Source: Oleispira antarctica RB-8 (GTDB taxonomy: Bacteria; Pseudomonadota; Gammaproteobacteria; Pseudomonadales; Oceanobacteraceae). From it: a stretch of 64,000 nt of DNA. The stretch covers positions 3,533,531-3,597,530 of the forward strand of contig FO203512.1 in the NCBI GenBank assembly GCA_000967895.1, read 5' to 3'. Under the pieces are notes generated by a model that was not told the DNA's origin, made no database searches, and saw only the letters and a list, made by a program, of their open reading frames with translations. Below are positions 4,956 through 43,538 of this stretch, in pieces. The stretch's first letter is position 1. Every line of letters starts with the position of its first letter. The translations under genes and the position numbers were made by a program.

Positions 4956-5003
4956 GTGATACCTGCTTAATAGTGTTTAACCAAGGCTGCTATCTGAGCA
5001 GTA

Positions 5004-24552: not shown

Positions 24553-25773
24553 CTAGAAGCTTTCGTGTGGACCAAACACTTCATAATGAATGCGATCGTC
24601 ATTGACACCCAGAGTGACCAATTGCTGTTTCGCAAACTGCATAAACGCCACAGGGCCGCACAGATAAAAATCGCCCAACGCTAAAGGTAATTGCTCTTCT
24701 ACCGAGACAAGGTCCATAAAACCGTGATGAATATCGGCCTGCTCAAGAGTTTCCGACTTATACCAAGTCAGAGCCTTTACCTTATTTTTCTGCACGAGGC
24801 TGGTTAAGCGCTTTTTAAATGAATGCTGAGCGCTATTTTCACACGCGTGTAAAAAATGTATTTTTTGCGGAGCACTTTTTTGTAAAGAGCCTTCTTCTTT
24901 AGAGCCTTGCTCAGCGAGCAACGTTTCTAACATCGACTGCATCGGAGTTAAACCGACCCCTGCTGAAATTAAAACAACGGGGGCAGCAGTTTTGTTTAAA
25001 AAGAAATCACCAGCCGGAGCATACAAGGTCACTTCATCAGCTAAGCGTAAGCCATCGTGCAAATAGTTTGAAACAATGCCGGGCTTACCGACGATTTCTC
25101 GTTTTACAGAAATACGATAGCTTTCGCCATTGGCTTTATCTGATAAAGAATATTGGCGAATTTCTTTAAATTCACTTTGCTTCGGCTGCACTTCAATGCC
25201 GATATATTGCCCGGCCTGATAATCAATAACAGGGCCGCCATCGACAGGTTCGAAAACCAAACTTTTTACCAATTCAGATTCAATGCGCTTCTCAACCAAT
25301 TTGAATTGTCGGCCACCCTTCCAGCCACCTTTCAATACTTCGCGCTGCTTATAAAGCTCACCTTCACGAGCAATAAAAATAGCCGCTAGCGCTTGGTACG
25401 CAACAGTCCAAGCTTCTTCAACATCGGCAGTGAATTGCTCTGGCACGAGTTCACGCAGGGTTTCGATTAAATGATGTCCCACTAAATCATAGTGTTCTGG
25501 CTGAATATTAAGGCTGGTATGCTTTTGCGCGATACGCTCAACCATCGATAGCAGCTGCTCAACGTTATCTAAGTTTTTAGCGTAAGCTGCAATCGCAGAG
25601 AATAAGGCAAATGATTGCTTACCCGAAGCCTGATTACTCATATTAAAAATATTTTGAGCTTCTGGGTTATGAGTAAATAAACGATTATAAAAATAATCGG
25701 TGATCGCACTGCCTGAGGCTTCTAATAATGGAACGGTACTTTTTACTAACTGAATGTGTTCGTTGCTTAACAT
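24553..25773 (-). CDS. hmp: Flavohemoglobin, nitric oxide dioxygenase
   Basis: 406 residues: a globin domain (1-140) with proximal His85, distal Tyr29 and Gln53, and Tyr95, all at the classical Hmp positions; then an FAD-binding domain (IRQYSLSDKANG) and an NAD-binding domain (VGLTPMQSML, FYLCGPVAFM). It converts NO plus O2 to nitrate in the cytoplasm using NADH. It lies downstream of a small membrane-protein gene and divergent from norR, with a sigma54 promoter and NorR sites between, so it is very likely NO-induced. Confidence 0.96.
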   Translation of the reverse strand: MLSNEHIQLVKSTVPLLEASGSAITDYFYNRLFTHNPEAQNIFNMSNQASGKQSFALFSAIAAYAKNLDNVEQLLSMVERIAQKHTSLNIQPEHYDLVGHHLIETLRELVPEQFTADVEEAWTVAYQALAAIFIAREGELYKQREVLKGGWKGGRQFKLVEKRIESELVKSLVFEPVDGGPVIDYQAGQYIGIEVQPKQSEFKEIRQYSLSDKANGESYRISVKREIVGKPGIVSNYLHDGLRLADEVTLYAPAGDFFLNKTAAPVVLISAGVGLTPMQSMLETLLAEQGSKEEGSLQKSAPQKIHFLHACENSAQHSFKKRLTSLVQKNKVKALTWYKSETLEQADIHHGFMDLVSVEEQLPLALGDFYLCGPVAFMQFAKQQLVTLGVNDDRIHYEVFGPHESF

Positions 25774-26390: not shown

Positions 26391-28004
26391 ATGACCAACA
26401 TCCCTTACACTTCGCTGATTGAACTGGCCATTGATCTAAGCAGTGGCTTGATCAATGAAGATAGATTCGAACGCTTATTAACCACGGTTCGTAAAACCAT
26501 ATCTTGTGATGCGGTGGTTTTACTGGCACGCCAAGGCGAGCAGCTTAAGCCACTAGCACTACAAGGCTTGAGCTCAGAGACTTTAGGCAGACGTTTTGAA
26601 ATTAATGAACATCCTCGTTTTCAAAAAATTGCGCAGAGCACGACCCCTGTAAGATTTGAAAGCAACAGCCCATTGCCCGACCCATATGATGGATTACTCT
26701 TGGCGATGGAAGGCGATTTACCCGTTCATTCCTGCATGGGATTTCCTTTATTATTTGAAGACTCTCTCATTGGTTTATTAACCCTTGATAGTCTAACGCC
26801 CAACAGTTTTGATGATATTCCTCAGCGCACTCTTGACGTTATTTCTGCGATGTCAGCCGCGACACTAAAAACCGCGCTCACTTTGGACTTGCTAGAACAA
26901 CATGCCTCTCATAGTCGTCAGCTAGTAGCCGAGTTAACTCACGAAGCATTAATCAAAGATGGCGGTGAGATCATTGGCAATAGCCCTGCCATGAATAAAT
27001 TAAAGAAAGAAATTCAAATCGTTGCCCAATCTAATTTCACCGCGTTAATTTCAGGCGAAACAGGTGTTGGTAAAGAATTGGTTGCCAGAACGCTACACCA
27101 ACAATCAAGTCGTAGCGAAGGTCCATTAGTTTATGTAAATTGTGCAGCGCTGCCAGAAAATCTCATTGAAAGTGAACTTTTTGGTCATCGTAGAGGTGCG
27201 TTTACTGGAGCCAATGAAAACCGTTCGGGTAAATTCACCATCGCCGATGGTGGCACGTTATTTCTTGATGAGATTGGTGAAATACCTTTAGCCGTGCAAA
27301 GTAAATTACTGCGGGCCCTGCAAAGCCAAGAAATTCAAGCCGTGGGCCAAGATAAAACCCATACCGTTGATGTTAGAATTATTGCCGCGACTAATCGTAA
27401 TTTAGTAAAAGAGGTTGAGGCCGGTCATTTTCGTTCCGATTTATTCCATCGTTTAACGGCGTATCCCATTCATGTGCCAGCGTTAAGAGAACGTGGCAAT
27501 GACACAGCGCTATTAGCAGGGTATTTTATTGAACAGATTCGTCGTCGATTAGGCATTCAACAGATTAAGTTTGCACCAGAAGTAACTCAGTATTTAAAAC
27601 ACTATGATTGGCCAGGAAATGTACGTGAACTCGAACATACCATTAACCGTGCAGCGTTAAAGGCGAATAATAGCCCACTGTTGAGCGCCCTAGAGAAAGG
27701 TTTAGTTACCATTGAGCTGTCTCATATTGGGCAACTGGTTGGTAATTCAGAGTCCGATAGTGGACCAGAGCAGACAACTGTCGCTCCGCTTAGTCCTATA
27801 GAGCCTAATTTAATATTTTCGGCCTCTGAGATAGGAATAAAGTCAGCAACTGAAGAGTTTCAGCGCCAACTTATTTCCAATGCACTGAATCAACACCAGG
27901 GAAACTGGTCTGCCGCGGCACGCCAACTCAAAACAGATCGCGCAAACTTAAGTCGTATGGCAAAGCGTCTTGGGATTAATATTATTAAAACAGTACAACA
28001 CTAA
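26391..28004 (+). CDS. norR: Nitric oxide-responsive sigma54 activator NorR
   Basis: 537 residues: an N-terminal GAF domain binding a non-heme iron that senses NO (the DPYDGL segment holds the conserved aspartates, here residues 97 and 100), the AAA+ domain with Walker A (GETGVGKEL) and GAFTGA at 269-274 that contacts sigma54, and a C-terminal Fis-type helix-turn-helix ([24 protein letters not shown]). It activates the divergent hmp operon when NO is bound. Confidence 0.95.
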
Positions 28005-28070: not shown

Positions 28071-28616
28071 TTATTCATAATTTAAATATTGCAGTATCTG
28101 AATACGCTGAGGTGAATCACTCAGCCACTGCCTAATACTATCTGCTTCTTTAACCGTTTCTTCACCTAGTACATCTACAAAACGCTGACGGCGAGTTTCT
28201 TCCGTCACTTGCTTACGCACCTGTCGCTGCCACTGTTCAGTAAAAACCGCAGGCATCTTTGAACCTAGATTAAGTGACTTTAATAATGACCACTCACCTT
28301 TATCCAGCCAAGCCTCATCACAATTAGTACATAAATCTAAGCGGTTATCATGGCCACTGGAGATTCGATACTTAGTCATAATTCGACTGCACTTTGGACA
28401 GCCCATTGCAGCGTGAGTATTTTCAGCGGCTTCAACTTGCACCTCTTCTGCCGGCATATTCTCAGTGCCAGCCGCAATGCCAAAACGCTCAGCCCAATCT
28501 CGATAATACAAAAGAGAAACGAATACACCTTCGCATTCATTACATCCCATCGCTGATAAACCTTGATCCATCTTTGTTGGGTGTAAATCTGGGCTTTTAC
28601 ATTTTGGGCATTTCAT
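28071..28616 (-). CDS. Zinc-ribbon protein of the zf-TFIIB type
   Basis: 181 residues with two zinc-ribbon knuckle pairs: CPKC near the N-terminus with CNEC, then CPKC with CTNC. The C-terminal half is helical and basic. It is the last gene of the minus-strand PspA/flotillin cluster, 33 bp after the giant ATPase. Such ribbons often recruit partners, so I infer an adaptor for the ATPase; nucleic acid binding is also possible. Confidence 0.7.
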   Translation of the reverse strand: MKCPKCKSPDLHPTKMDQGLSAMGCNECEGVFVSLLYYRDWAERFGIAAGTENMPAEEVQVEAAENTHAAMGCPKCSRIMTKYRISSGHDNRLDLCTNCDEAWLDKGEWSLLKSLNLGSKMPAVFTEQWQRQVRKQVTEETRRQRFVDVLGEETVKEADSIRQWLSDSPQRIQILQYLNYE

Positions 28617-28649
28617 TTTTGCTTCCTTACTTTCTAAATTTAGATCGCT

Positions 28650-31600
28650 CTAATTTTTATCAATTTTTTTAGCCGTACTTTTAATACTGTATTCAGCCTC
28701 CAAAGCCCTTAACTGTGTTGAAATTTCTTTCATCTTGTCATGGGTTTTTAAATCGATATCAATTTTACGATCCATTGAACGCACGATAGGGAAGATACTA
28801 TTTTCCATGGTATCGGCGAGCGCTTTCAGTATTTTTTCCAGTCCTGGCACAGGTTGATTTATAACTTCAATCTTCGGTGCTGGTTGCGGTGGAGTTTGCT
28901 TCGCTGATTGCTGCGCGATCAATTTTATACCAGAAGAGATGATCGATGAGAATTGACTCATCGATTGATTCAGACCTTGTAGTTGCTCAATACTCGCAGC
29001 TTCATAAGGCCGCTCTTCGCTTCTACGCTGAGCTTCTTCATTTCTTAACAAAAGCTCTGACTCTATTCGCTGCTGCTTATCTTTCTCACGAATTTGATTG
29101 GACTGCTCGGCATTTTCTCCAAGAGACTTCACACCCTTTACAAGATCGACAAGCTGCCCAATAACTTTTCCACCCACATCAGCATCATCACCGCCCATGG
29201 CTTTATTACGAATAAAGTCGGCTTTAATTTTCGCCCAGCGAGTCGCTTCTTCATCCGTCATTTCACCGCGCAGTTCAGCAAGCTTCAATAAGTTTTCTTC
29301 AGAGCCATTGGTTAATAACTGTGATTCACCGACATAATGATCGGCAATCATCTGCATTAGTTCGCTATGATTCATAACCGAAGATACCTTCTCGGCCATT
29401 TTATTCATATTACGATAACTACCTTGTAACCTGAATGACGGCTCAATACGGTATTCATCTGACTGTGCAGCCGAAGCGATATATTGCTGATTGATTTTCA
29501 ATACCACGTCTTGAATCACAAACAATTTTTTCAATACTGCTGTTATTTCATTGATCTCTGCCCCACTGTACTGGTGGCTTAAATCGGTGGTGGCAATATT
29601 TTCACCTTGAGTCATGCGCACGATTTTATACAAGTCGTTTAAGTCGCGTGTCGCTAACGGTGCTAATACGGTATTCGACGTCATACAGTTCTCGACGTAA
29701 CTCAAGGCAAATTGTTCATCCATGCCCCCTAGAATGTCACCTAGGTTATAAATGTCTGCACGGTTCGCCAACATGTCCGGAACCTGAAAAGCTTCACCGG
29801 TTTCGGTATAAGGATTACCGGCCATAACGACACAGAATTTCTTGCCGCGCATATCATAGGTTTTGCTTTTACCTTTCCATATACCTTCGATGCGACGAGT
29901 ACCATCACATAATGAAATAAACTTCTGCAAAAACTCAGGATGCGTATGTTGAATATCATCCAGATACAGCATTACGTTGGTGCCCATTTCTAGACCTAGA
30001 TTTAACTTCTCTAGCTCTTGGCGGGCAGTCGCATTAGGCGCTTGTTCTGGGTCTAGCGATAAAACGTCATGCCCTAATGAAGGACAATTAATTTTCATGA
30101 AGATCAAACCTAAACGGCTTGCGACATATTCCATCAGGGTCGTTTTACCGTAACCTGGTGGTGAAATCATCATTAATAAGCCCATTAAATCAGAACGTTT
30201 ATTCTCACCTAACGTCCCCATTTGCTTGGCTAAATTATCACCAATTAATGGCAAATAAGATTCATTAATTAAACGGTTACGCACAAACGAGCTGAGTGGC
30301 TTCGGCTTAAACGACTCAAGACCGAGTAAGTCTCTTTCCTGTTCAATAATTCCCTGACGCATTTTATGATAGTGATGAAAGCCGGTAACAACACGTTGTT
30401 GATGATCGTCTAAACGTTGTAAGAATTCATCAATCGCCAACGTCATCGTTTGCTTATCAATTCTAGGATGGTCACCTAATAAACCAGTAATGGTTAACTC
30501 AGTATCGACTTCCGTTGGACGACGCTCAATTCGACCTTCAGCATTGATCATCGCTACGGCTTCAGGAATGTAACGAGATAAGTGTGCTAATCCTTTACCT
30601 TCTACCAAAGCGGTCAACCAGGACTGGGTTAAACTCCAACGCTGTGCCACTTTTCCTTTAAGCGTATCCAGTGTGCTATGAAGTTTTCGCCAAGAAGAAG
30701 AGTCTAAAGAATGCTTCAATTCATCAACGAGTTTCTGAGCATATTTACTGGCAATGAATTCAATACGATCACGGCTTAACTCATGCACTAAATAATCAGC
30801 ACTGCGGTTTAATTCATGTTGCGTTGACGGCAAACCATAATGATGATTAAAATCTGTTAATGCTTCTAGTATTTCAGTCCGTAATAATTGAATGGCTTTA
30901 TTATTATTGAAAATGTCTTTCATTTGAAAAGCTGATTGCGCGCGTTCGTGCCAGCTTTGAGTTTGGACTTTTAAGCTTAATAAATTATCAGCTGCATTCG
31001 CTTCTAAGTGCTGAATATTAGCCCAGAAAATTTGTGCCAGCCCACGACATAAAGGATCAAACCTTAGTTGGTCGGCACTGTCCATTGCGGGTATTAACTT
31101 TTGTAGTAGCAATACCGCATCATGATCATGAATGCCTTTTTCATAACCTTCTTTATAGCGAGGATTGGCAAAGTCACGTACCAAACTACTCAGTTTATCC
31201 TCATCTAATAACGCATGATTAAGCAACTCATTATTCAGATCATCCGTATTGTTATCAGCTGCTTGAATAATTAAGGCAACTAAGTATTCACTGCGATAAA
31301 CATCAGGGCTTTCTGATTCAATAGCCATTTCCCAGTAAGGTCTTAATTCTAAAAGATCGGTACGGGTTAGCTCTTCAAAATAATCAGTACCCGTTAAGTG
31401 AATATTTAATTCACCATCTCTCGGCACGATGGTTAGATCAAGCTCTTGTGTGTTGACACTGAATTTATGACGTGGGCCAAGCTTAATAACATTGCCGCCA
31501 TCTTCATAAATATCGGTTTTATCTCTTAGTGAGCGTAACGCTTGCTCTTTAATTGATTTAAAACGCGATTCAATATCATCAGCTTTAACTGCATTTTCTA

Positions 31601-34112
31601 GGTCGCGTAAACGCTCGACCATGTCGTGGGTTTTAAGCACTAATGAATCAGAGGCAAAATAGGTATTAAGTTGCTCAGCATCGGTAAACTTTAACGAGCG
31701 ACGCTCGATGCTGCTTAAAATACGATTCGCAGCATCCGTCACCGATTGCGCTTTGCGCAGTCGTTCATCAAGCAGCTTCTGTTTATGGCCTTCGAAAGAT
31801 TGATAAACTTCATCTCTCTTCGCCATTATGTCACTGAGAAATTCTTCGAAGTCGCTGAACTGACTTTCTAATTCCTCTAATTGCACTAACAAGCGAGATA
31901 GCTGTTCATCGCAACGCTCAGGTGTTGTCGACATGCCCAAAGCGTTAGTAATACTTTGCGAGAATAATTTGAATTGAGCACTAAACTGAGCAACAGCTTC
32001 TTCTGAACCTACTGATTTCTGCTTGTGCTTAGCGGCCGCTCTACTTTGATTCAGTTTTGAATACACTTCAGAAATTGAATCGATAATACGTGTACGTATA
32101 GTGGCATCATTCACTTTAAGCGAAGACATCAATTCTGATAATAGATCGAGACCAGAAGCGGTTTCTTCGATCTGCTCGATAATTGGTATTAATACGGCAA
32201 TGGTTTCCGCATTATCGACTTCGCTATCGAACGCCTTGATTTTATCAAAATACGGTAATAGTGCCGCTTCCTGCGATAAGAACTCAACCGTGCTTTCACT
32301 GAGCTTTTCTTGCGCCTGAATTAGTTGCTGATCGAGTTCTTCTAGACGAGCGGTATCAATGTAGCGATTTTCTTTGATGGTGGCTAAGTGGCCACGCTGT
32401 TGGCGCAATGAATTTAACGCCGCCACAAATTCTTCCGCTACCTGCCAGTTTTCAGGACGAATAGAGGCAATGAGCTTCTGCTGCTCTTCTTCTGCATTCG
32501 CCATCGCCAGTTGAGATTGTTGACGAATACTTTGAACTTTCTCGAACTCATCAATAACAAGCTCAGAAGTTTTGGATATCTGTTTGATTAAAGCCGCTAT
32601 CGAATTATTTTTATCGACAAGCGCTTCTTGGCTATTTGAGTATTCTTCAATCCAATAGTGTGAATCAAAAAAACGATTAGCAGTCTTACTCAGTTCTTCA
32701 TAAATTCTTGCCGATACGGTCTGATCTGAAATCATTCGGTGCAAGCTGTACAGGTCGGAGACACCCCGCACTAATGAGGCATTACCTATTTTTCCGAAGA
32801 AGCTCTGACTCACGTCTGCACGGCTGGCGTAATCAGCACTAACGTAGGCTGTTTGCCAAATTTGCATGGGATGTATACGCGTCGGCTCACTCTCGGCCGA
32901 AAAGATCACCAGCATGCCATCTTCTGCTAAAGCATAGCCGTGACCATAAATAGGGTTTTGCATTGATTTGCTGATTAGGTTGTAAGAAAACAAACCAAAT
33001 AAACCCTGCTCAGGTTCATAAAAAACAAATAATACATCTTCACCATTAGGGGATTTAATCATGCGCTTAAATTTAAGCGATTGACCATCTTCAAGTGAGG
33101 CTAAAGCATCCCCTTCAAATTTTTTCATTTCCCCTGTTTGCAGGTAATAACCGCCAGGAAATATAATGCCGTGATCTTCAGGTAACTGAACACAAGACTG
33201 ACCAATATCGTCAATTTTAACGACTTCGTCGGTTAATGAATTAAAAACAAAATAACGCCACTGCTCTTCACGATAAGGCAGTATTTTTAACAGTATAAGT
33301 GCACCCAGACTGGCATAGAAGAACTGGCCATCATCTAAGGATTGAGTTTTGTCTTCAACCGGCTCACTATAAATACCTTTACCATTTTCGGTATTGTTCT
33401 CAATCTTAATGGTTAAATCACCATTAATTGTTTCTACAAATACTTTATCAAGAATATTGATGTGCGAATGGCGACCATGCACCGTATTCTCACGATCTGT
33501 CGCTGTCCATTCAAAATCGTATGCGCTAGGTAATTGAATATCACGTTCGCCGCGATTATCAATGTACGTTATATCTTTACCATCAGCCGAGACAGACCAA
33601 CGGAAAACGCGAATGTCTTCTAAGCGTTCACCAATTTGAAAGCCTGCTAGCAACTTGCCATCTTTTACCGTTAATTGCACAAGATGAGTTTGCTTGTAAT
33701 AACGATATAATTCTAGAAAGTCACTTTGAAAAGATGCCGATGTTAAAAAACTATCTTGATGGTTTACAGCTTCAAGGCTGTAGTTTTCACCTTCAATGTT
33801 TAACTTAAATAACGAAAAAACATCATCAATATGAGTTTCTTTTTTTAATCCGATAAAAACATTATAACCAAAAAGAAGGTAATCACCGATTTGAACCATA
33901 TCGCGGGCGATACAGTTATTTTCTGTGCGTACACGAACTCGGGAAATAACACTAAGATCTGAACTTCCAAATTCAGATAAGCGCGCATCATTTAAAGTGC
34001 GAGCTTGTTGATTCAATAACCGCCCTTGCTCGACTAAGCGCTTACGAATAACTTCATAGGCACCACCTTCTGCAACGGCATTTTCGACTTGATTGGGATT
34101 TTGTTCAGCCAT
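28650..34112 (-). CDS. Giant AAA+ ATPase with coiled coils and a beta-rich N-terminal region
   Basis: 1820 residues, no membrane segment. Predicted order: short N-terminal helix; a beta-rich region (about 60-430) that looks like a propeller-type repeat domain; a long coiled coil (about 470-930); a helical stretch; the AAA+ domain (about 1290-1550) with Walker A (SPPGYGKTT, Lys1323), Walker B (MLYLDDIQH, Asp1385/1386) and a sensor-1-like MAGNP; and a C-terminal helical part after a proline-rich linker (KQTPPQPAPK). Relatives are annotated only as DNA repair ATPase or AAA protein without proof. Position with flotillin, YqiJ-like, PspA and YjfI proteins argues for membrane stress work, possibly remodelling PspA or SPFH assemblies. 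ATG with AAGGA nine bases before. Confidence 0.85.
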   Translation of the reverse strand: MAEQNPNQVENAVAEGGAYEVIRKRLVEQGRLLNQQARTLNDARLSEFGSSDLSVISRVRVRTENNCIARDMVQIGDYLLFGYNVFIGLKKETHIDDVFSLFKLNIEGENYSLEAVNHQDSFLTSASFQSDFLELYRYYKQTHLVQLTVKDGKLLAGFQIGERLEDIRVFRWSVSADGKDITYIDNRGERDIQLPSAYDFEWTATDRENTVHGRHSHINILDKVFVETINGDLTIKIENNTENGKGIYSEPVEDKTQSLDDGQFFYASLGALILLKILPYREEQWRYFVFNSLTDEVVKIDDIGQSCVQLPEDHGIIFPGGYYLQTGEMKKFEGDALASLEDGQSLKFKRMIKSPNGEDVLFVFYEPEQGLFGLFSYNLISKSMQNPIYGHGYALAEDGMLVIFSAESEPTRIHPMQIWQTAYVSADYASRADVSQSFFGKIGNASLVRGVSDLYSLHRMISDQTVSARIYEELSKTANRFFDSHYWIEEYSNSQEALVDKNNSIAALIKQISKTSELVIDEFEKVQSIRQQSQLAMANAEEEQQKLIASIRPENWQVAEEFVAALNSLRQQRGHLATIKENRYIDTARLEELDQQLIQAQEKLSESTVEFLSQEAALLPYFDKIKAFDSEVDNAETIAVLIPIIEQIEETASGLDLLSELMSSLKVNDATIRTRIIDSISEVYSKLNQSRAAAKHKQKSVGSEEAVAQFSAQFKLFSQSITNALGMSTTPERCDEQLSRLLVQLEELESQFSDFEEFLSDIMAKRDEVYQSFEGHKQKLLDERLRKAQSVTDAANRILSSIERRSLKFTDAEQLNTYFASDSLVLKTHDMVERLRDLENAVKADDIESRFKSIKEQALRSLRDKTDIYEDGGNVIKLGPRHKFSVNTQELDLTIVPRDGELNIHLTGTDYFEELTRTDLLELRPYWEMAIESESPDVYRSEYLVALIIQAADNNTDDLNNELLNHALLDEDKLSSLVRDFANPRYKEGYEKGIHDHDAVLLLQKLIPAMDSADQLRFDPLCRGLAQIFWANIQHLEANAADNLLSLKVQTQSWHERAQSAFQMKDIFNNNKAIQLLRTEILEALTDFNHHYGLPSTQHELNRSADYLVHELSRDRIEFIASKYAQKLVDELKHSLDSSSWRKLHSTLDTLKGKVAQRWSLTQSWLTALVEGKGLAHLSRYIPEAVAMINAEGRIERRPTEVDTELTITGLLGDHPRIDKQTMTLAIDEFLQRLDDHQQRVVTGFHHYHKMRQGIIEQERDLLGLESFKPKPLSSFVRNRLINESYLPLIGDNLAKQMGTLGENKRSDLMGLLMMISPPGYGKTTLMEYVASRLGLIFMKINCPSLGHDVLSLDPEQAPNATARQELEKLNLGLEMGTNVMLYLDDIQHTHPEFLQKFISLCDGTRRIEGIWKGKSKTYDMRGKKFCVVMAGNPYTETGEAFQVPDMLANRADIYNLGDILGGMDEQFALSYVENCMTSNTVLAPLATRDLNDLYKIVRMTQGENIATTDLSHQYSGAEINEITAVLKKLFVIQDVVLKINQQYIASAAQSDEYRIEPSFRLQGSYRNMNKMAEKVSSVMNHSELMQMIADHYVGESQLLTNGSEENLLKLAELRGEMTDEEATRWAKIKADFIRNKAMGGDDADVGGKVIGQLVDLVKGVKSLGENAEQSNQIREKDKQQRIESELLLRNEEAQRRSEERPYEAASIEQLQGLNQSMSQFSSIISSGIKLIAQQSAKQTPPQPAPKIEVINQPVPGLEKILKALADTMENSIFPIVRSMDRKIDIDLKTHDKMKEISTQLRALEAEYSIKSTAKKIDKN

Positions 34113-34157
34113 AGCGAGATCCTTGTGTTCTTACGATTGTCGTTCCAGACGAAGAGT

Positions 34158-34184
34158 AGGAGAGCATAATTGCTATACTCTCCT
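34158..34184 (-). other. Intercistronic hairpin between flotillin and the giant ATPase
   Basis: AGGAGAG and CTCTCCT pair around a 13-base interior that can pair further (AGCA/TGCT). No T-run follows, so it is more likely an mRNA-stability or translation element than a terminator. Confidence 0.35.
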
Positions 34185-34209
34185 GTATTAGCTTAAATAC
34201 TAAATCGTA

Positions 34210-36171
34210 TTAACTATTTGTTGTGATGTCGCTATCACTACTTGCTTTCTTTTTGCTTTGATTTTCCATCACGGTTGCTAATAACGCGCCGACTGTGCTG
34301 CTCTTCTGAGCAACACCATCAATCGCTTTACCTAATGATAGAGACTTAGAGAAGGTATCGAAGAAGTGACCTTCACCACCCACGATATCAATTTTCGCTT
34401 TCTGAAGAGCCGTTGCCAGAACCTCGGCATTATCACTCGCAATCTCTTTGCTCGCATCCAGAGTAGCGATTGCTTCTTTAAATGCCGTTTCTAAGCTCAT
34501 ACGGAATTCTTCGTGATCACGTGCTTGCTCACTCATGCCGCCCATAGCATCGAATTTCTCAACCAGACCTTCGGCTTCTGCTTTAAAGTGCTCGCGAGTA
34601 ACATCAGCTTCAGCCAGACCCACTTCTTTAGTTGCCTTCGCTTCTGCACTGCCTTTCGCACTGATAACTTCTGCACCAGCCAAGCCAGTATCGCGTAAGG
34701 CCTTACCTTCAGATGAACCTTTCGCAGCGATCACTGCCGCTTCTGCCAAGCCTTCTTTTTCTAACGCTTCTGCTTTCGCTTCTTGTACTTTCGCTTCTGC
34801 TAAGCCACTTGCTGCTTGTTCTGCTTGCACACCTTCAGCCAGTTTCTTCTTAGATTCTGACTCTTTGGCGGAGGCTTCTAAATTAGCTTGTGCCAGGGTC
34901 GTAATTTCTACCGCTTTAAATTTAGCCGCTTGTTCTTGTGCTTCAGCCGCTTTCACTTGCTTAACTTTCAGCTCATCAGCATCACCTTCTGCCGCAAGTA
35001 CTTGTATTTGCTTCAAGCGATCTGCTTCAGAAACTTCACGAACTTCTTTAATACGCTCTTCTTCAATCGCTACTGTTTTGTCAACAACAACACGTTCACG
35101 AATGACATTGGCGATTTCTTTCTTTTCAATTTCAATTGCTTTTTCAGCTTCGATCGTTTGTAAATCAACTTCACGATTACGAGCAACAATTTCTAAATCT
35201 CTTGCGCGAGTTACTTTCTCTACTTCGATAACAACGGCACGCTGACGATTTTGCTCGGCGACTTCAACTTCACGCTTTTGATTTTCAGTCTGTACCGCTA
35301 AGTCTTGCTCAACTTGAATGCGAGTTGATTCTGATTTTCTACGCTCTTCTTCTTGTACTTTTAACGTTTCTGCTTCTTCTCTTGCACGAATAGTGGCTAC
35401 TTCTCGCTCTTGTTTCGCTTCAGCATCCGCTTCTTGGCGCTCTAGTTCTAGCATCGCTTCACGGGTTTCAACATTCTTCTTTTTAATCGCTAAATTCTCG
35501 TTTTGCGAGAGTTCGTTAGTGATTACATTTTGATTCGCGGTTAGTTCAGTAATTTTCTTGATACCTTCAGCATCAAGAATATTATTAGGATCTAGCGCAT
35601 GCTTTGGCGTTTGTTCAAGATAATCAATCGCTACATCTTCTAATACATAACCGTTTAAATCGTCGCCAATAACTTCGACAATTTTTTCACGGAACTGTAG
35701 GCGATTTTCAAACAATTGAACGAACTCAATTTGTTTACCCACTGTTTTTAACGCTTCCGAGAACTTAGCGGCAAATAATTCATAAACCGCGTCTTTATCA
35801 GAGGCACGATCAGCACCAATCGATTTGGCAACTCGCAGTACATCTTCTGAGGTTTCATTCACTCGTAGATAAAAAGCAACAGTGATATCCGCACGCATAT
35901 TATCCAGGCAGATCAAACCGTCTTTTCCGCGACGATCTACTTCTAAAGTAATCAATGAAACCTTCATTAATTCCTTTTTGTAAATCACGGGGATTACTAA
36001 AGCACCGGTAAAATGCACTTTAGGTGTTGAGCTCATGTCATTGACGATCAGCGCTGTACCCTGTGCTACCTTTATATAAAAGGATTGAAAAACGAATAAC
36101 ACCCCCATAATAATAACGATCGCAATGCCTACGAACGTTAGTATCGGCATTAATATTGATAGATCAGCCAT
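34210..36171 (-). CDS. Flotillin-like SPFH protein, YqiK type
   Basis: 653 residues: an N-terminal membrane helix (about 8-30), an SPFH/Band-7 domain (about 35-215), a very long Glu/Lys/Arg coiled coil (about 225-430), and an Ala/Gly-rich region holding three related units near KEGLAEAAVIAAKGS, DTGLAGAEVISAKGS and EVGLAEADV. YqiK-like flotillins form oligomers in membrane microdomains. The YqiJ-like gene directly upstream is the partner usually found with YqiK. Here PspA and the giant ATPase are in the same run of genes. The ATG start is clear. Confidence 0.92.
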   Translation of the reverse strand: MADLSILMPILTFVGIAIVIIMGVLFVFQSFYIKVAQGTALIVNDMSSTPKVHFTGALVIPVIYKKELMKVSLITLEVDRRGKDGLICLDNMRADITVAFYLRVNETSEDVLRVAKSIGADRASDKDAVYELFAAKFSEALKTVGKQIEFVQLFENRLQFREKIVEVIGDDLNGYVLEDVAIDYLEQTPKHALDPNNILDAEGIKKITELTANQNVITNELSQNENLAIKKKNVETREAMLELERQEADAEAKQEREVATIRAREEAETLKVQEEERRKSESTRIQVEQDLAVQTENQKREVEVAEQNRQRAVVIEVEKVTRARDLEIVARNREVDLQTIEAEKAIEIEKKEIANVIRERVVVDKTVAIEEERIKEVREVSEADRLKQIQVLAAEGDADELKVKQVKAAEAQEQAAKFKAVEITTLAQANLEASAKESESKKKLAEGVQAEQAASGLAEAKVQEAKAEALEKEGLAEAAVIAAKGSSEGKALRDTGLAGAEVISAKGSAEAKATKEVGLAEADVTREHFKAEAEGLVEKFDAMGGMSEQARDHEEFRMSLETAFKEAIATLDASKEIASDNAEVLATALQKAKIDIVGGEGHFFDTFSKSLSLGKAIDGVAQKSSTVGALLATVMENQSKKKASSDSDITTNS

Positions 36172-36224
36172 AACAATTACTCCATTTGTTTTTAAGTTTT
36201 AAGTTTATTTTTTATTAGGTTATT

Positions 36225-36887
36225 TTATTGCAGAAATTCTGCTTCAGATATTACTCGGTAGGCATGCTGGTCTTTAAGATATTGCAGCAATACAACACGA
36301 TCACCTTTTTTGAAGGTTTCGTTATTCATGGTTCTTGCTTTAAAAATCAATCCGGCTCCACCATCGGCTAAGAGCACTTCGCCAAAGCCAGAATCAAGAC
36401 GCAATGAACGTACGATTGCTGTTTGCCCGAGCACATTTTTTACCGTGTTTTTATTCATATTAGCAAACAAGGGCTTCAGCGGTTTAATGATCTGTGCCGT
36501 AATCAATACTGCACCATATAAAGAGCCAACGAGTATCGGTAAGCCTACGATGTATTCTAAGAAGCCATCAGGTATATACGGGAAGATAAGATACACGGCA
36601 AAGTAACAGATGAACCAGCCAAATAAGGCTAAGAGAGAGATAACAATGGTTAAAGGGACGCCATTTAAACCGAGCTTCAACAATAGCCCCGCCAATTGGT
36701 GCACACCACCGTCGGCATCGCCTTCTGGCATATCAACATCTAATACATCTAGATCAATGACACCTAACACCGCGACCAACCAATAAACAGCCGTCAGTGC
36801 TAATAAGAGAGTGAAAAATAGCGTCGGAAATGAAGCAATATTCTGATAGAAAGGATCCATCTTATCACTTAAAAATATCGCAAACAT
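36225..36887 (-). CDS. YqiJ-like OB-fold membrane protein (NfeD-related)
   Basis: 220 residues from the ATG at 36887, five bases after an AAGGAAG site; an earlier ATG at 36914 has none. Four or so membrane segments (for example VPLTIVISLLALFGWFICYFAVYLIFPYI, split across a loop) precede a C-terminal OB-fold domain (TAIVRSLRLDSGFGEVLLADGG onwards). It is the typical partner of the flotillin encoded 53 bp downstream and probably tethers or organises it in the membrane. Confidence 0.85.
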   Translation of the reverse strand: MFAIFLSDKMDPFYQNIASFPTLFFTLLLALTAVYWLVAVLGVIDLDVLDVDMPEGDADGGVHQLAGLLLKLGLNGVPLTIVISLLALFGWFICYFAVYLIFPYIPDGFLEYIVGLPILVGSLYGAVLITAQIIKPLKPLFANMNKNTVKNVLGQTAIVRSLRLDSGFGEVLLADGGAGLIFKARTMNNETFKKGDRVVLLQYLKDQHAYRVISEAEFLQ

Positions 36888-36992
36888 GTTTACTTCCTTG
36901 TGTTTGTTCACCATAAATATGGCGCACTATATTAACGAAATTTTAATCACTTAACAGCCGCTATTTTCTATTCTATTCATATTTATAAAAGA

Positions 36993-37679
36993 CTACTGTT
37001 TGTTTTTTAATCGTTCCAATACATCTTTGGCTTGCTGACCCTGGTTAGCAATACCTGCGTTGTGCAATTTATCCTGCAGAGATTGCTCTGAGGTATTAGC
37101 ATGAAGCTCTTCTGCTGCCTGCAACTTTGCAGCATTCAACGTTTGCTTCTGTTTAATTCGCTCTAACGAATCCATAGCCGTTTGTAATTTAGTATTGGAT
37201 CCTGCATAACGCTGAGATACCGATTCTTGCGCGCGCTGTACACTCTCGGTCGCTTTCACAGTATCAATCTGCTGCTTCAAACGCTTAATATTATTATCCG
37301 CAGAGGCAATGGCCGCTTTTAAACTATTAGCACTGGCAGAAAAACCATCAACAGCCTCTGATTCAGAGACCTGTAGATTTTCTAATTCGGCTATTTTTTC
37401 AGCAATCTCTAACGCCAATACATCATCATCTTTCTCTAAGGCCTTAATTGCATAACCTTCGTATTCTGTAATGCTGGCTTTTAGCGTATTAACCTTCTGC
37501 TCGGCGACTTTTTGCTGAGCAATAATAGCAACAAGACTTTCTTTGGATAGCTTCAATTCGCCTGATGCATCACGCACCTCTTGATCCAAAATTCGCAGCG
37601 CTTGTGTATCAACAACCGCCTCTCCTGCTTCATTCATGCCACCACGTAATGCCGTTAACATTTTTGACCATAAGTTCAT
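36993..37679 (-). CDS. PspA/IM30 family membrane-stress protein
   Basis: 228 residues, almost entirely coiled coil, with the PspA/IM30 form: N-terminal amphipathic MNLWSKMLTALRGG followed by heptad helices (LRILDQEVRDASGELKLSKESLVAII), and no membrane segment. PspA proteins polymerise on stressed membranes, maintain proton-motive force and resemble ESCRT-III. No pspF, pspB or pspC gene is present, so this belongs to a PspA branch coupled to SPFH and AAA+ proteins. Confidence 0.9.
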   Translation of the reverse strand: MNLWSKMLTALRGGMNEAGEAVVDTQALRILDQEVRDASGELKLSKESLVAIIAQQKVAEQKVNTLKASITEYEGYAIKALEKDDDVLALEIAEKIAELENLQVSESEAVDGFSASANSLKAAIASADNNIKRLKQQIDTVKATESVQRAQESVSQRYAGSNTKLQTAMDSLERIKQKQTLNAAKLQAAEELHANTSEQSLQDKLHNAGIANQGQQAKDVLERLKNKQ

Positions 37680-37704
37680 GATTGCTCTCCTAGATCTAAA
37701 TTAA

Positions 37705-38352
37705 TTAAGCCAATTCAGGCGTGGGTTGTTCGATTAGAAACTCAGCATAGGCTTGAGTTGCTTGTATTACGTTGTTCGCTAACATGTCGATTTCTAATAA
37801 AACATTCGACATGATTGAAGAAGCACTTAAAGCACCAAACATGTGATAGACCGATTCACCATTTGCCATGGTGTCTAAGCTGATGGTCGAAAGTGGGAAA
37901 TATTTATGGGTACGCAGTATGGCATCATTAAAGCCCGCCACATCAGATACCGCATCGACCGGCCACAAAACCGATTCAACAATAATCTGTTCGCCGACTA
38001 CGGTTAAAAATACCGGTAAGTCGCCAAAAGCTTTCATTTCTATAAAAAGCGAAGCGTCAATACCATCAATCAACTCTATCGTTGCTTGATTCGTTGAAAA
38101 TAGAGGCTCTTGCTCTAACGCTGTTTTTAAGCTCTGGCTTGTCCATAGCTCTGATATCTCATGTAAGTTTGTCATCACAAACTCTCCTTCCTTTATCGTT
38201 TCAACCAAATTGGGTTCACGTAATGTTTTCTCCGCCTGAGTCAGCAACCGTGCGTTCTCGGGACGAATCCAAACTTCCTTTTTTACCAGCCCTTGTTCTC
38301 TCAAGCGACGGCGAAATTCTCTTTGATAATGCGCTGATGTTTTTTGTGTCAT
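37705..38352 (-). CDS. YjfI-like DUF2170 protein with an N-terminal ribbon-helix-helix-like segment
   Basis: 215 residues. Residues about 60-200 are the DUF2170/YjfI domain found beside PspA genes. The first 48 residues are extra: HYQREFRRRLREQGLVKKEV followed by WIRPENARLLTQAEKTLRE matches the RxRLRxxGLxxVxVWVPxxxxxxLxxLA pattern of ribbon-helix-helix/MazE-like DNA-binding domains. The first gene of the cluster, with three palindromes directly upstream, so it may be an autoregulator. The ATG is 5 bp after the -10-like TATGTT, implying a leaderless message if that promoter is used. Confidence 0.8.
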   Translation of the reverse strand: MTQKTSAHYQREFRRRLREQGLVKKEVWIRPENARLLTQAEKTLREPNLVETIKEGEFVMTNLHEISELWTSQSLKTALEQEPLFSTNQATIELIDGIDASLFIEMKAFGDLPVFLTVVGEQIIVESVLWPVDAVSDVAGFNDAILRTHKYFPLSTISLDTMANGESVYHMFGALSASSIMSNVLLEIDMLANNVIQATQAYAEFLIEQPTPELA

Positions 38353-38357
38353 ACCTA

Positions 38358-38386
38358 AACATACTCATTACATGTAATGCCGTCAA
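38358..38386 (-). promoter_or_regulatory. Candidate sigma70-type promoter of the PspA/flotillin cluster
   Basis: On the minus strand TTGACG and TATGTT are 17 bases apart. The first palindrome fills the spacer, so an occupied site would block RNA polymerase. The start codon is only 5 bp downstream, pointing to leaderless transcription or another, more distant promoter. Confidence 0.55.
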
Positions 38387-38423
38387 GTATTACATGTAAC
38401 AAAATAAAAATATTACATGTAAT
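38367..38423. promoter_or_regulatory. Three-copy operator array, TTACATGTAA palindromes
   Basis: ATTACATGTAAT occurs at 38367-38378 and 38412-38423 and ATTACATGTAAC at 38389-38400. Starts are 22 and 23 bp apart, about two helical turns, so a bound protein would face the same side of the helix. No further copies were noticed elsewhere in the window. Confidence 0.85.
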
Positions 38424-38554: not shown

Positions 38555-38580
38555 GAGAAAAAGGCGAGAACAACTCGCCT
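38555..38580 (-). terminator. Terminator of the glucosylglycerate operon
   Basis: On the minus strand AGGCGAG and CTCGCCT pair around a 5-base loop and are followed by a T-run. It immediately follows the phosphorylase stop codon. Confidence 0.9.
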
Positions 38581-40349
38581 TATGAATTACTGATCCACAG
38601 TGTTTGATAAGGGGTTAACTGTACTAGCATGTCTTGGCGAGTCATTTCTGCGCCAGAGATAAGGTCATGCCAATCATCGGTACTGACCAAATTAATATCC
38701 GATAACATAAACTCTTGGGCCACATCACTGATATTACTGATGCAAAAAATACTCTGCTTTCTATCGTGAGACTGACGCCAATAAGCGAAAATAGAATATC
38801 CTAAATGAAGCGTAAACTGAGTCGCATTAGGATGAAACGCTTTTTGCTGTTGTCGAATGGCTAATAATCGTTTTAATTCAGTGAATACTTTTTTGTGATG
38901 GCTTTTCTCTTCAAGCAGCCCTTCCAGCTCATCGTATTGCCACTGATGTCTATTAATCGAGCGATTATGACCCGTATGCTCCATTCGTTGATAATCATTG
39001 CGCGTCGCCAACAAACTATGAACATAAATACCCGGAATGCCTTCTAAACCCAGCATAATCGCATGGGCACATATAAAGCGGTCGATTCCGAGTTCATCTT
39101 TGCCTTTTAACGTGCCTTGCAGCGCATCGAATAACGAAATATTCACCTCATACGGTTTTTGAATCGCTTCGCCTTCCTCGTTTTCTAGCGCACGCCAAGA
39201 AATACGACCACCAAAATCTTGCAAGGTATCGACTAAAACTTGGGTTTCATCATCCGCCAATATACCTTCAACCGGCCTTAGTCCCATACCATCGTGAGAA
39301 GCAATAAAATTAAAATAGGTAGTGCCCAACTGAGCGGGCGGCATACTCATTAACCAAAGTTTTAAATGATGACTGTTGCCAGTGATTAAGGTATTGATTA
39401 ATAAAGGTGGCAAGGCAAAGTTATACACACAGTGCGCTTCGTTGGCATTGCCAAAATACGATAGATTTTCGCGATTGGGAATATTGGTTTCGGTAATAAT
39501 CACCGCATCACTTTGCGCATGCTCAATCAATAATCTTAATAAGCGCACAACGTTGTGTGTTTCTTCGAGATTAATGCTTGATGAGGCAATTTTTTTCCAT
39601 AAAAAAGCAATCGCATCGAGGCGAAATATCCGTACGCCCATATCCAAATACTGACGAATAATTTTAATAAATTGTAATAAGACTTCAGGATTTCTAAAAT
39701 CTAAATCAACCTGGTCATGACTAAAGGTACACCACACGTATTGCAGCCCTTTATCGGTTTGAGTCTCTCTTAATAACGGACTGGTTCTGGGGCGAACCAC
39801 TTGTGATAAATCAGCGTCTAATGACTCCGTATAGAAGTAGTCATGACCAGGCCCCTCGCCTTTAATAAAATTTTGAAACCATAAACTGCGACTGGAACAG
39901 TGATTAATGACCAAATCCGCCATCAAGCGATAGTCCTGGCTAATACTTTCAATATCAGCCCAATCTCCCAGCGCTTCATTCACGCTGGAAAAATCCATCA
40001 CCGAAAAACCATCATCTGAACTGAAAGGGAAAAACGGCAGAATATGCACGCTGTTAATTAAGCCCTCGCAATGCTCATCTAAAAAATGCTTTAACGTAAT
40101 TAATGGTTTTTCTTTGGCTGCTAGAAAGCTATCACCATAGGTGATCATGACGGTGGTTGATTGATCCCACAAATCACTAGGACGCACTTGATCATGAGAG
40201 GCTATTTGATGGCTTTCGCTCTCTAATCTCATTTCTTGTAAAAGAGTTTCTGTCAGCATTTCAAACGATACGTTAATATTCGTTTCATGATAAATCATTT
40301 CTAATAAATGCTGGGTACGTTGCAATAGTGCGGAATCAAATATACTCAT
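38580..40349 (-). CDS. Glycoside hydrolase family 13 (subfamily 18) glucosylglycerate phosphorylase
   Basis: 589 residues of the sucrose phosphorylase-like GH13_18 type: [24 protein letters not shown] with the nucleophile Asp, an ITETN acid/base region and [12 protein letters not shown]. In a cluster that makes glucosylglycerate, the best-fitting activity is reversible phosphorolysis of glucosylglycerate to glucose 1-phosphate plus D-glycerate, as known for GgaP-type enzymes. The ATG overlaps the upstream gpgS stop (ATGA). Sucrose phosphorylase activity is less likely given its neighbours. Confidence 0.85.
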
Positions 40350-41572
40350 CGGGTCATAAACTCCTTATTATCTTCTTCTACGGCCTCGTATAAACGTTCT
40401 AAAATATCGGGTTTAGCACTGATAACACGATTCCAACTTGGAATAAAAGGCGTTTCCATTGGGTTATCTAAAAAGGCTTCTCCGCCTTTCATAATATTTT
40501 GTGCAAACAGCTCGACCGCTTTTTCTTCAGCGTGAATATCCAGTGTTAAGCCGTTCATCACGGCGTCGTTGTGATACGTTTCGATAAAATCGAGGGCAAT
40601 ACGAAAGTAGCTTGCCTTAATAGAGCGGAATGTTTCAGTATTAAACGTTTTGCCATGAGTCGCTAGTTTTCTAAATAACGCTTTAGAGATATCGATGGAC
40701 ATTTTAGACAAGCCACCTTGATCATCCTCTAACGATAGGTCTTGATGCTTATGGTCATATACATCCGCAATATCGACTTGGCACAAACGATTATTGGCAT
40801 AGTTTCTGTGCATTTCAGACAATACGCCAATCTCCAATCCCCAATCACTAGGAATACGAATATCATTTAAAACGTCTTTACGAAAAGAGAACTCACCCGC
40901 TAATGGATAGCGAAAGCTGTCCATAAACTGCAAGTATTCCATCTCGCCAAAAACTTTTTTTAAGGCGCGTAATAATGGCGTCACTAATAATCGGCTAACA
41001 CGGCCATTAATTTTTCCATCAGCGACCCGCGCATAAAATCCTTTACAGAACTCATAATTGAATTGTGGATTGGCAACGGGATAAATTAAGCGCGCGAGTA
41101 ATTCTCTGTCGTAAGTCACAATATCACAGTCGTGCAGCGCCACCGATTCAGAACGGTTAGATGCGAGGGTATAGCCCATGCAATACCAAACATTGCGCCC
41201 TTTCCCCAGCTCTTTAGGGGCGAGATTGAGCGCTTGCAATTCAGCATCTAGCGCTTGTAATCTTGGGCCTTCGTTCCACAAAACCCGATGATGCTGAGGT
41301 AATGCTCCAAAGAATTTTAGTGCATAACGATATTGCTCTTCATCGGCTCGGTCTAATCCAATAACAATTTCACTGAGGTAATCAGCACCTTCTAGGTGTT
41401 TGACAATATTAGGCAATGCATCGCCTTCTAGCTCTGAAAATAGCGACGGTAAAATTAATGACATCGGGCGTTTCTTACTAAACTCTCTTAGTTCGCTTTC
41501 AATATCTTCAACAGGTCGATGCGCTAAATTATGTAACGTCGTTACTATGCCATTTTGATAAAAATCAGCCAT
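40346..41572 (-). CDS. gpgS: Glucosyl-3-phosphoglycerate synthase (GT81)
   Basis: 408 residues of the GT-A type retaining glycosyltransferase family: [19 protein letters not shown] near the N-terminus, [15 protein letters not shown], and the metal-binding [11 protein letters not shown]. It joins NDP-glucose with 3-phosphoglycerate to form glucosyl-3-phosphoglycerate, the precursor of glucosylglycerate, an osmolyte used under salt and nitrogen stress. The phosphatase, kinase and phosphorylase genes adjoin it. Confidence 0.9.
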
Positions 41573-41598
41573 TATACTTCCTTATTTTAATTATAAAT

Positions 41599-42432
41599 TT
41601 ATAAGATTTTGCGTAATCCAGCATTCCAGCCTCTAGGCCCAAATTCTTCTGAGATAAAGAAACCGTGTGTCCTTTTTAGTTTGGGAGATTCGTGTACAGG
41701 AGAGCGTATGATAAGTGCTAGGTCTGCTTGTTCTAACATCGCAATGTCATTACCACTATCACCAATAGCAATGGTTTTAGTTGTTGGCAGATTTCGTTGT
41801 TTTTTATATTCAGCGGCCAGCCAAACAAGAGCCTGACCTTTATTACAGGCGCCGCTTAAATGCAGAAAACGTCCACCTTGTAAGACATGACCACCTTGGT
41901 CTTCTAACCACAATATAAATTCATGTTTGGCCTTATCGACCCCCAACCATGTAATCGGTTCACCAAATTCTCTTTGATTCGCTTGCTGTGCTTGCTCAAG
42001 AGATAAACCCGTTAACTGGGCAATCACTTCTTCCTTCATCACAGAGAAATGACTGAAGCTGTGCGGAAAAATAAGTTTGGCTTTCTCAAGAATGGCTAGC
42101 CAATAACTTCTTTCTTGGCAGAAGCGAAATATCCAAAATCCATCGGTCTCGATACAGCCTTCTGGCTTGGTCGTAAAATACCCCTGAGGAATAAAAACCG
42201 CCGCGCCATTTTCGATAATGAAGGGATGCGGGTTGTTTAACTCTGCACGCAGGGATAATACTTCTGCACGAGTTTTGCTCGTCGTTAAAATGACGGGGAT
42301 TTGGTCTTGTTCTAGCTCACCTAAAAGCCCATCCGCGGCTTTATGGCTGTAACTATCGTGGTCTAATAAAGAACCGTCTAAGTCAGTAAAAATAATCCAG
42401 TTATTGCTCACTTTATTCATATCGTCATTCAT
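41599..42432 (-). CDS. HAD-family glucosyl/mannosyl-3-phosphoglycerate phosphatase
   Basis: 277 residues. Motif I FTDLDGSLLDHD, an SKTRAEV motif II region, and AIGDSGNDIAML (motif IV) are those of the MPGP/YedP HAD-IIB subfamily. It most likely removes phosphate from glucosyl-3-phosphoglycerate to give glucosylglycerate. It follows the kinase gene by 2 bp and precedes gpgS by 26 bp. Confidence 0.88.
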   Translation of the reverse strand: MNDDMNKVSNNWIIFTDLDGSLLDHDSYSHKAADGLLGELEQDQIPVILTTSKTRAEVLSLRAELNNPHPFIIENGAAVFIPQGYFTTKPEGCIETDGFWIFRFCQERSYWLAILEKAKLIFPHSFSHFSVMKEEVIAQLTGLSLEQAQQANQREFGEPITWLGVDKAKHEFILWLEDQGGHVLQGGRFLHLSGACNKGQALVWLAAEYKKQRNLPTTKTIAIGDSGNDIAMLEQADLALIIRSPVHESPKLKRTHGFFISEEFGPRGWNAGLRKIL

Positions 42433-42434
42433 CG

Positions 42435-43394
42435 CTACAGCCCTTTCAATGTCACATCACGCTGACCAAAGCGAGGATCACCTGGCAAAGGGTTTGGCGC
42501 CTGATAAGCCACCACTTGACGCTTATGCGTGAGCTGAAATAAATGCTGACAATTTTGAGGAAGATATTTCAAAGCATGACGAGTAAGACGTTCGTAATGT
42601 TGAATAAACTGTCGAATTTCTTCTGCTGGCATAATATGATTATTTTTAGATGTATCGTCCTTTAGCGCTTCTTCTTTTAAAGCCACCTCTTGCGTTAACT
42701 TCTGCTCTTGCTCTAGGCGCCATTGATAGACGCAACTAAAGCTTGGCGCTTGCAACATAATAAGACGATCAATGAGCTGCCATAACTCCGGATAATTGGT
42801 CACTAACTGTTGATTAATATAATTACGCCATTTTCCCTGCGGGTCTCTCAGCGATTCCAGCTCATTAACCGGTTCTAATAAAACTTCTTCTGCCTCTGCG
42901 GTAATACCGACACACCAACCTTCCAGAATAATAATATCAAGCGGGGTTTCAACATGCGGCCACTCTGTTTTGGGTAAGCGGTCGTCTTGAGCCTTGTTGA
43001 ACTTTGGCACTTTAACGTCGCCATTATCTTGAGATAGCTGCTGCAGTGTTTCGAGTGCAAGTTCTAAATCGTGAGTCCCGGGTACTCCCCGTGTAGAAAA
43101 AAGCGGATGCACATCCGTTGCCAACTGCTGCCGCTGCTGGCGGGTTAAATAAAAATCATCAATAGAGATCGCAATAGACCTCAGCCCCTTGGCCTGAAGG
43201 CAAGTGCATAAATAATCAGCAAGTGTCGTTTTGCCTGATCCTTGGCAACCATTAATACCGACCACTAATGTTCGCCCTGCACTATAATGGTGCCCAATTA
43301 AGGTTTCGACGATTGGGTCAAACCAAATTGATGCTTGCTGTAGATAGTATTCGGGCAAGCTGTTCCTTGTGATAAACCCACGTATTGCGCCCAT
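42435..43394 (-). CDS. D-glycerate 3-kinase
   Basis: 319 residues from the ATG at 43394 with GAGG five bases before; a GTG two codons upstream is possible. The P-loop NGCQGSGKTTLADYL and the conserved ISIDDFYLTRQQRQQLA and RGVPGTHDLELALETL stretches are those of the plant-type GLYK/YggC-like glycerate kinases. It converts D-glycerate, released from glucosylglycerate by the phosphorylase, to 3-phosphoglycerate and so closes the loop. First gene of the minus-strand operon, divergent from pstS. Confidence 0.88.
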   Translation of the reverse strand: MGAIRGFITRNSLPEYYLQQASIWFDPIVETLIGHHYSAGRTLVVGINGCQGSGKTTLADYLCTCLQAKGLRSIAISIDDFYLTRQQRQQLATDVHPLFSTRGVPGTHDLELALETLQQLSQDNGDVKVPKFNKAQDDRLPKTEWPHVETPLDIIILEGWCVGITAEAEEVLLEPVNELESLRDPQGKWRNYINQQLVTNYPELWQLIDRLIMLQAPSFSCVYQWRLEQEQKLTQEVALKEEALKDDTSKNNHIMPAEEIRQFIQHYERLTRHALKYLPQNCQHLFQLTHKRQVVAYQAPNPLPGDPRFGQRDVTLKGL

Positions 43395-43538
43395 AAGCAC
43401 CTCAAAACTATGATTTGGTTATTGTGTTCTAAATGGGTTACAGCAGGATCCATACCCTTTTTATAAAAAAGGTTAAATGATTTTTATCTTTGATCTAAAT
43501 ACGACTGTTACTTAATAACAGAGGGGCTAAAGTACTGA

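Follow-up and report, generated by a model that had tools for sequence, protein, structure and literature searches.

A bac-type PspA, flotillin and AAA+ ATPase operon of Oleispira antarctica whose first gene is predicted to encode its own repressor

The window analysed here (the whole 64,000-nucleotide stretch of Oleispira antarctica RB-8 contig FO203512.1, positions 3,533,531 to 3,597,530) contains an already described type of locus, the bac-type PspA/flotillin/ATPase membrane-stress operon. Comparison with related loci makes it likely that this is a PspA membrane-maintenance operon whose first gene, bacA, encodes the operon's own repressor, is leaderless, yields a second product from an internal start and is linked in its control to PspA. 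What looks new lies in this first gene, namely the predicted repressor with its leaderless start and the predicted internal-start product, which would be PspA-binding and chaperone-like.

The gene set itself corresponds to the Pseudomonas bacABCDEF operon known from literature of 2008 and 2024, which in P. aeruginosa comprises PA3732-PA3729 and the next two genes and is co-transcribed as six genes (PMC10948618). In addition, the available part of Ravi et al. 2024 (PMC11237479) describes a neighbourhood of CesT/Tir-PspA, band-7, beta-propeller AAA+ ATPase and YqiJ genes and proposes ESCRT-like membrane remodelling by it. Neither the cluster nor its ESCRT-like interpretation is therefore new.

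Results

Gene content and conservation of the operon

An earlier note, made from the sequence alone, had proposed a run of six genes on the minus strand, and all six open reading frames are present, separated by gaps of 25-97 bp (Table 1). The best NCBIfam match to the first gene is NF050185 'biofilm formation regulator BacA', aligned over residues 1-208 and scoring 299.9 bits where the cut-off is 300 (a Pseudomonas relative, L116, reaches 360 bits), and the closest named relative is an Oleispira MAG whose BacA is 89% identical. The Pfam DUF2170 match is confined to residues 70-206, which confirms the extra N-terminal domain that the earlier note had seen on this YjfI/DUF2170 protein. The YqiK-like flotillin was similarly borne out (29% over 463 aa against E. 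coli YqiK, E = 1e-46), while the YqiJ-like name of the bacC product holds by gene order and topology but not by BLAST, which found no similarity to E. coli YqiJ (E = 0.31); neither protein matched a Pfam family. PspA and DUF3686 each occur once in the Oleispira genome, a single 4,406,383-bp contig in which no PspF scored over the cut-off (306.8 bits versus 443.55) and a search for PspC found none, in agreement with the claim that the cluster is distinct from the classical Psp response.

Table 1 Features of the bac operon and its promoter (window positions) and standalone RHH-like genes of other loci (locus positions).
Feature	Position	Strand	Remarks
Operator 3 (predicted), TTACATGTAA	38413..38422	.	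exact palindrome
Operator 2 (predicted), TTACATGTAA	38390..38399	.	exact palindrome
Predicted -35, TTGACG	38381..38386	-	sigma70-type
Operator 1 (predicted), TTACATGTAA	38368..38377	.	between -35 and -10
Predicted -10, TATGTT	38358..38363	-	17 bp from -35; followed by TAGGT (5 nt), then ATG
bacA, 215 aa	37705..38352	-	RHH/MazE-like N-terminal domain (residues ~1-46) and DUF2170 (70-206); predicted autorepressor
Putative DNA-binding domain of BacA	38215..38352	-	helix, KKEVWI strand, helix; from alignment, AF2 and UrfF match
AGGAG Shine-Dalgarno before internal start	38184..38188	-	
Internal ATG, residue 60	38173..38175	-	predicted start of DUF2170-only product
pspA (bacB), 228 aa	36993..37679	-	Pfam PspA_IM30 (PF04012); sole PspA in genome
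bacC, YqiJ/YuaF-type membrane protein, 229 aa	36225..36914	-	from position and conservation
bacD, YqiK-like flotillin/SPFH, 653 aa	34210..36171	-	BLAST versus E. coli YqiK
DUF3686 - DUF7902 - AAA+ ATPase, 1820 aa	28650..34112	-	Pfam
Double TFIIB-type zinc-ribbon protein, 181 aa	28071..28616	-	Pfam Zn_ribbon_TFIIB twice; accessory, operon membership not conserved
Standalone RHH-like genes	L129 7264-7587; L132 7572-7934; L136 6985-7305		also in L130, L131, L133 and L134

The surroundings of the operon hold two further gene groups. Positions 38580-43400 of the window, upstream of bacA and coding in its direction, carry a row of GH13 phosphorylase-like, glycosyltransferase-like, HAD phosphatase and kinase genes that looks like a sugar/glycerate metabolism operon. 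A NorR-type GAF-sigma54 activator gene (26391-28004, plus strand) is convergent with the bac operon and adjoins a divergent flavohaemoglobin gene (24553-25773, minus strand), and the pair looks like a separate nitric-oxide response. Because of this neighbour, and because a search of related bac promoters gave no sigma54 site, the activator was set aside as a regulator of the operon.

To place the operon in context, 80 named loci were gathered with an alignment of the RHH-DUF2170 protein; P. aeruginosa itself is not among the genomes, the best Pseudomonas match (18 genomes) being 77% identical, and relatives and NF050185 stood in for it. PspA follows BacA in 80/80 loci, and a check for co-occurrence in other genomes, which the earlier note had suggested, found BacA, PspA, YqiJ, flotillin and ATPase all in order in 70/80. 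The remaining ten comprise seven with BacA-PspA only (some on short contigs) and three cut by contig ends. As these loci share ancestry, they do not represent 80 independent events. Within a class sample of 274 genomes, DUF3686 occurred in seven, each of which also encoded DUF2170, and the two lay within ~6 kb on one contig in four of the seven. The zinc-ribbon gene was found in only ~6 of the 52 loci having enough downstream sequence and was rejected as a core member, which leaves the guiding role that the earlier note had given its product unsupported. The gene 3' of the ATPase is often that of a rhomboid protease or PLD-like protein (L111 19524-20027, L090 19619-20173, L100 19483-20169).

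Palindromes over a sigma70-type promoter

Three perfect copies of TTACATGTAA lie directly upstream of bacA, 22-23 bp apart, and the earlier note was right that the cluster has an operator of its own, which is its most informative feature. Exact copies number four in the 4.4 Mb genome; the fourth (genome positions 2328050-2328059, L003) is a single copy without a clear gene start alongside. A search for a wider regulon gave 105 one-mismatch copies genome-wide versus 118 for a reversed-pattern control, that is, no excess. Across the related loci, 79/80 bacA promoters contain at least two ACATGT palindromes (the TTACATGTAA type) within 110 bp of the start, mostly at a spacing of 21-24 bp, compared with one of 12,732 other 110-bp segments from the same loci, and the palindromes are kept in BacA-PspA-only operons. 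Apart from the palindromes and the columns of the -35 and -10, these promoters differ widely in sequence. The arrangement TTG/TTT/TTA-N16-18-TAnnnT, enclosing the proximal palindrome, was identified in 68 of 73 promoters versus 4.5 expected by shuffling.

A putative DNA-binding domain that varies with the palindromes

The textbook RHH order is strand-helix-helix, whereas the BacA N-terminal domain appears to run helix-strand-helix. The NCBIfam family UrfF ('plasmid repression protein F') matches the domain in 44/46 members at E <= 0.05 (best 4.5e-5, short of the curated cut-off), a MazE-like profile gives a weak match in 20 of the same domains, and the match to PF11455 is weak and sub-threshold (hhalign E = 0.0015, probability 17%). 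An AF2 monomer model of modest confidence places a helix at residues 6-19, an extended segment at 21-30 and a second helix at 31-45, which fits a ribbon formed on dimerisation without proving it; Foldseek with the model of this domain returned no match. NF050185 spans 206 positions including the N-terminal domain, for which the N-terminal part alone gives E = 2e-26, and the distribution of differences over the three codon positions (884/638/1721) indicates that the domain is coding.

DUF2170 proteins with this domain carry the ACATGT-type palindrome upstream, and changes in the one accompany changes in the other. For example, Pseudomonas paralogues in which the putative recognition strand reads KREFW for KKEVW have CTTTCATGTAAG inverted pairs in 5/5 cases, three of them chromosomal (L115, L119, L120) and two plasmid-borne (L142 on pQBR103 and L143 on pPma4326F, ~4700-5600). 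On these two plasmids the operon consists of PspA and glutathionylspermidine synthase genes. Similarly, the sole locus of the 80 without ACATGT (L091, ~3650-3921) has TTACAGGTAA..TTACCTGTAA, i.e. TTACAGGTAATATTACCTGTAA; in its BacA the segment that follows the strand is changed (WINQD) and the internal start is missing, and the locus reads as a natural specificity variant.

The short DUF2170 proteins of spermidine-synthase type operons are without the N-terminal domain, and in seven larger loci the operon includes a standalone RHH-like gene (Table 1). Upstream of DUF2170, palindromes of the GACATAATATGTC type were found by a strict pattern in 7/15 short-type loci, and these operons are probably a split version of the same circuit. 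No comparable palindrome was found for short forms with neither domain nor RHH gene (L144, L145) or for E. coli yjfI.

Predicted leaderless and internal starts of bacA

The distance from the -10 element to the ATG is 5-8 nt in all 68 called promoters, and a Shine-Dalgarno sequence precedes the bacA start in 4/80 loci versus 72/76 for pspA. The bacA mRNA should therefore start at or beside the ATG, and bacA looks leaderless. Within the linker between the two domains, an internal Shine-Dalgarno sequence with an in-frame ATG was identified in 74/80 loci by a strict script and in at least one more (L038, scored negative because the script took an earlier tryptophan), giving ~75/80, compared with 6.6% of control ATGs. 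The linker varies in length and sequence, each of the three frame phases is represented among the Shine-Dalgarno sequences and 37 different pentapeptides precede the internal Met, which points to selection at the nucleotide level. The predicted product of 143-157 aa has the size of crystallised BacA (8Q8O, 146 aa), a structure of DUF2170 only that starts near Oleispira residue 65 (aligned from 68). The second start would thus give the DUF2170-only protein that was crystallised from P. aeruginosa as BacA.

Discussion

Proposed autorepression linked to PspA

In the proposed circuit, the mRNA for full-length BacA would have no leader, so that this form would probably be made at a low level, while the strong internal ribosome site would yield DUF2170 alone. 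Comparative genomics suggests that the RHH/MazE-like domain would bind the tandem TTACATGTAA copies overlapping the sigma70-type promoter; the sequence data support a BacA that occupies the promoter of its own gene and keeps the operon repressed. Since DUF2170 has been predicted by others to bind PspA, with a BacA-BacB (PspA) complex predicted by AF2 at a probability of 0.981 (PMC13092808), the level of repression would probably depend on how much PspA is free, as opposed to polymerised at damaged membrane. Departure of PspA to damaged membrane would then induce the operon, although the opposite sign is possible, and the DUF2170-only form may buffer PspA or the repressor. After induction, PspA, flotillin, YqiJ and ATPase would act jointly at the inner membrane. 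In a PA14 bacA transposon mutant, the BacB, C, D, E and F proteins rose 6.1-13.5-fold (PMC10948618); this is an uncomplemented MAR2xT7 insertion, and the overexpression could stem from outward transcription from the transposon.

A more elaborate version, to which somewhat less than an even chance is given, holds that one gene and two proteins form a PspA-stress switch, in which a leaderless repressor-chaperone fusion on TTACATGTAA would compete for PspA with a more abundant chaperone-only form. Recruitment of PspA to the membrane would alter how far the repressor occupies its sites, with neither PspF nor a two-component system involved, and the same logic may recur where the repressor is a standalone RHH gene with its own GACATAATATGTC operator.

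Alternative explanations

For P. aeruginosa it has been published that the operon is sigma54-dependent and that BacA, as a T3SS-chaperone-like protein, exerts its control through contact with other proteins alone, in keeping with a putative -24/-12 site reported upstream of PA3732 and with the chaperone-like fold of DUF2170. However, the sigma54 consensus TGGC-N7-WTGC was found in 0/80 bacA promoters (P. aeruginosa itself not among them), where the sigma70-type promoter enclosing the predicted operator prevails (68/73), and as the published BacA is the DUF2170 part only, the DNA-binding part was not considered in that proposal, which appears highly improbable. Binding of the palindromes by some other, trans-encoded regulator would be in line with the many regulators that bind palindromes of such size, but is also distinctly improbable: the palindrome changes together with the BacA domain, remains where other operon genes are lost, is replaced by a different one in sister operons that have a standalone RHH gene instead of the domain, and is missing from the two loci with neither. 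It is rather doubtful, too, that bacA has a single product and leaves the internal Shine-Dalgarno sequence and ATG unused, given that both are kept in an otherwise variable linker, with 37 different pentapeptides ahead of the internal Met and the Shine-Dalgarno sequence in each of the three frame phases.

The earlier note had also inferred a bacterial analogue of ESCRT: PspA polymers on a platform of flotillin would be taken apart by the giant ATPase, with the zinc-ribbon protein as its guide. This reading is about the effectors and does not conflict with autorepression by BacA. An ESCRT-like role for PspA, flotillin and ATPase is a reasonable idea, and remodelling of PspA polymers by the ATPase is plausible; the conserved five-gene order and the same proposal in the available part of Ravi et al. 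2024 favour it. A PspA/ESCRT-III superfamily protein is encoded here (PF04012). The ATPase has the motifs PPGYGKT (Walker A), YLDDIQ (Walker B) and GNP, and resembles known AAA proteins among PDB sequences only around the P-loop, and an assignment of its AAA+ module to a clade was dropped because nothing else aligns. In contrast to Vps4, which is defined by its MIT and C-terminal domains, the ATPase had no Pfam match to either. Given also the scarcity of the zinc ribbon and the occurrence of BacA-PspA pairs without ATPase, the analogue in its full form seems unlikely, though less so than the sigma54 and trans-regulator proposals.

Relation to known systems

The operon shares the gene order bacA-pspA-YqiJ-flotillin-ATPase with P. 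aeruginosa bacABCDEF, but the published BacA is without the N-terminal domain that the full-length protein has here, the published promoter is sigma54 rather than sigma70-type with predicted operators, and a zinc-ribbon gene, the last one of the run in the window, is seldom part of such operons. Ravi et al. 2024 share both the genes and the ESCRT-like idea, whereas the available part of their paper mentions, of the features described here, only a standalone RHH gene, and this for the spermidine-synthase type; a fused DNA-binding domain, an operator and leaderless or internal starts are absent from it. As in RHH autorepressors of the antitoxin type (RelB, MazE-like), a small strand-containing domain is combined with tandem palindromes over its own promoter and, by prediction, with a C-terminal part whose binding partner is the product of the following gene; unlike them, BacA would have PspA rather than a toxin as partner, is apparently helix-strand-helix and appears leaderless. 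Classical pspFABC likewise contains PspA and links it to its own transcription, but here a predicted fused repressor takes the place of the sigma54 activator, with no PspF over the cut-off and no PspC.

The circuit proposed here is a concrete one for how a PspA system without PspF may sense membrane damage and control itself, in a widespread system that includes Pseudomonas. It offers an explanation for the rise of the operon on loss of bacA, for a crystal structure without the DNA-binding part, and for how contact between BacA and PspA may reach the promoter.
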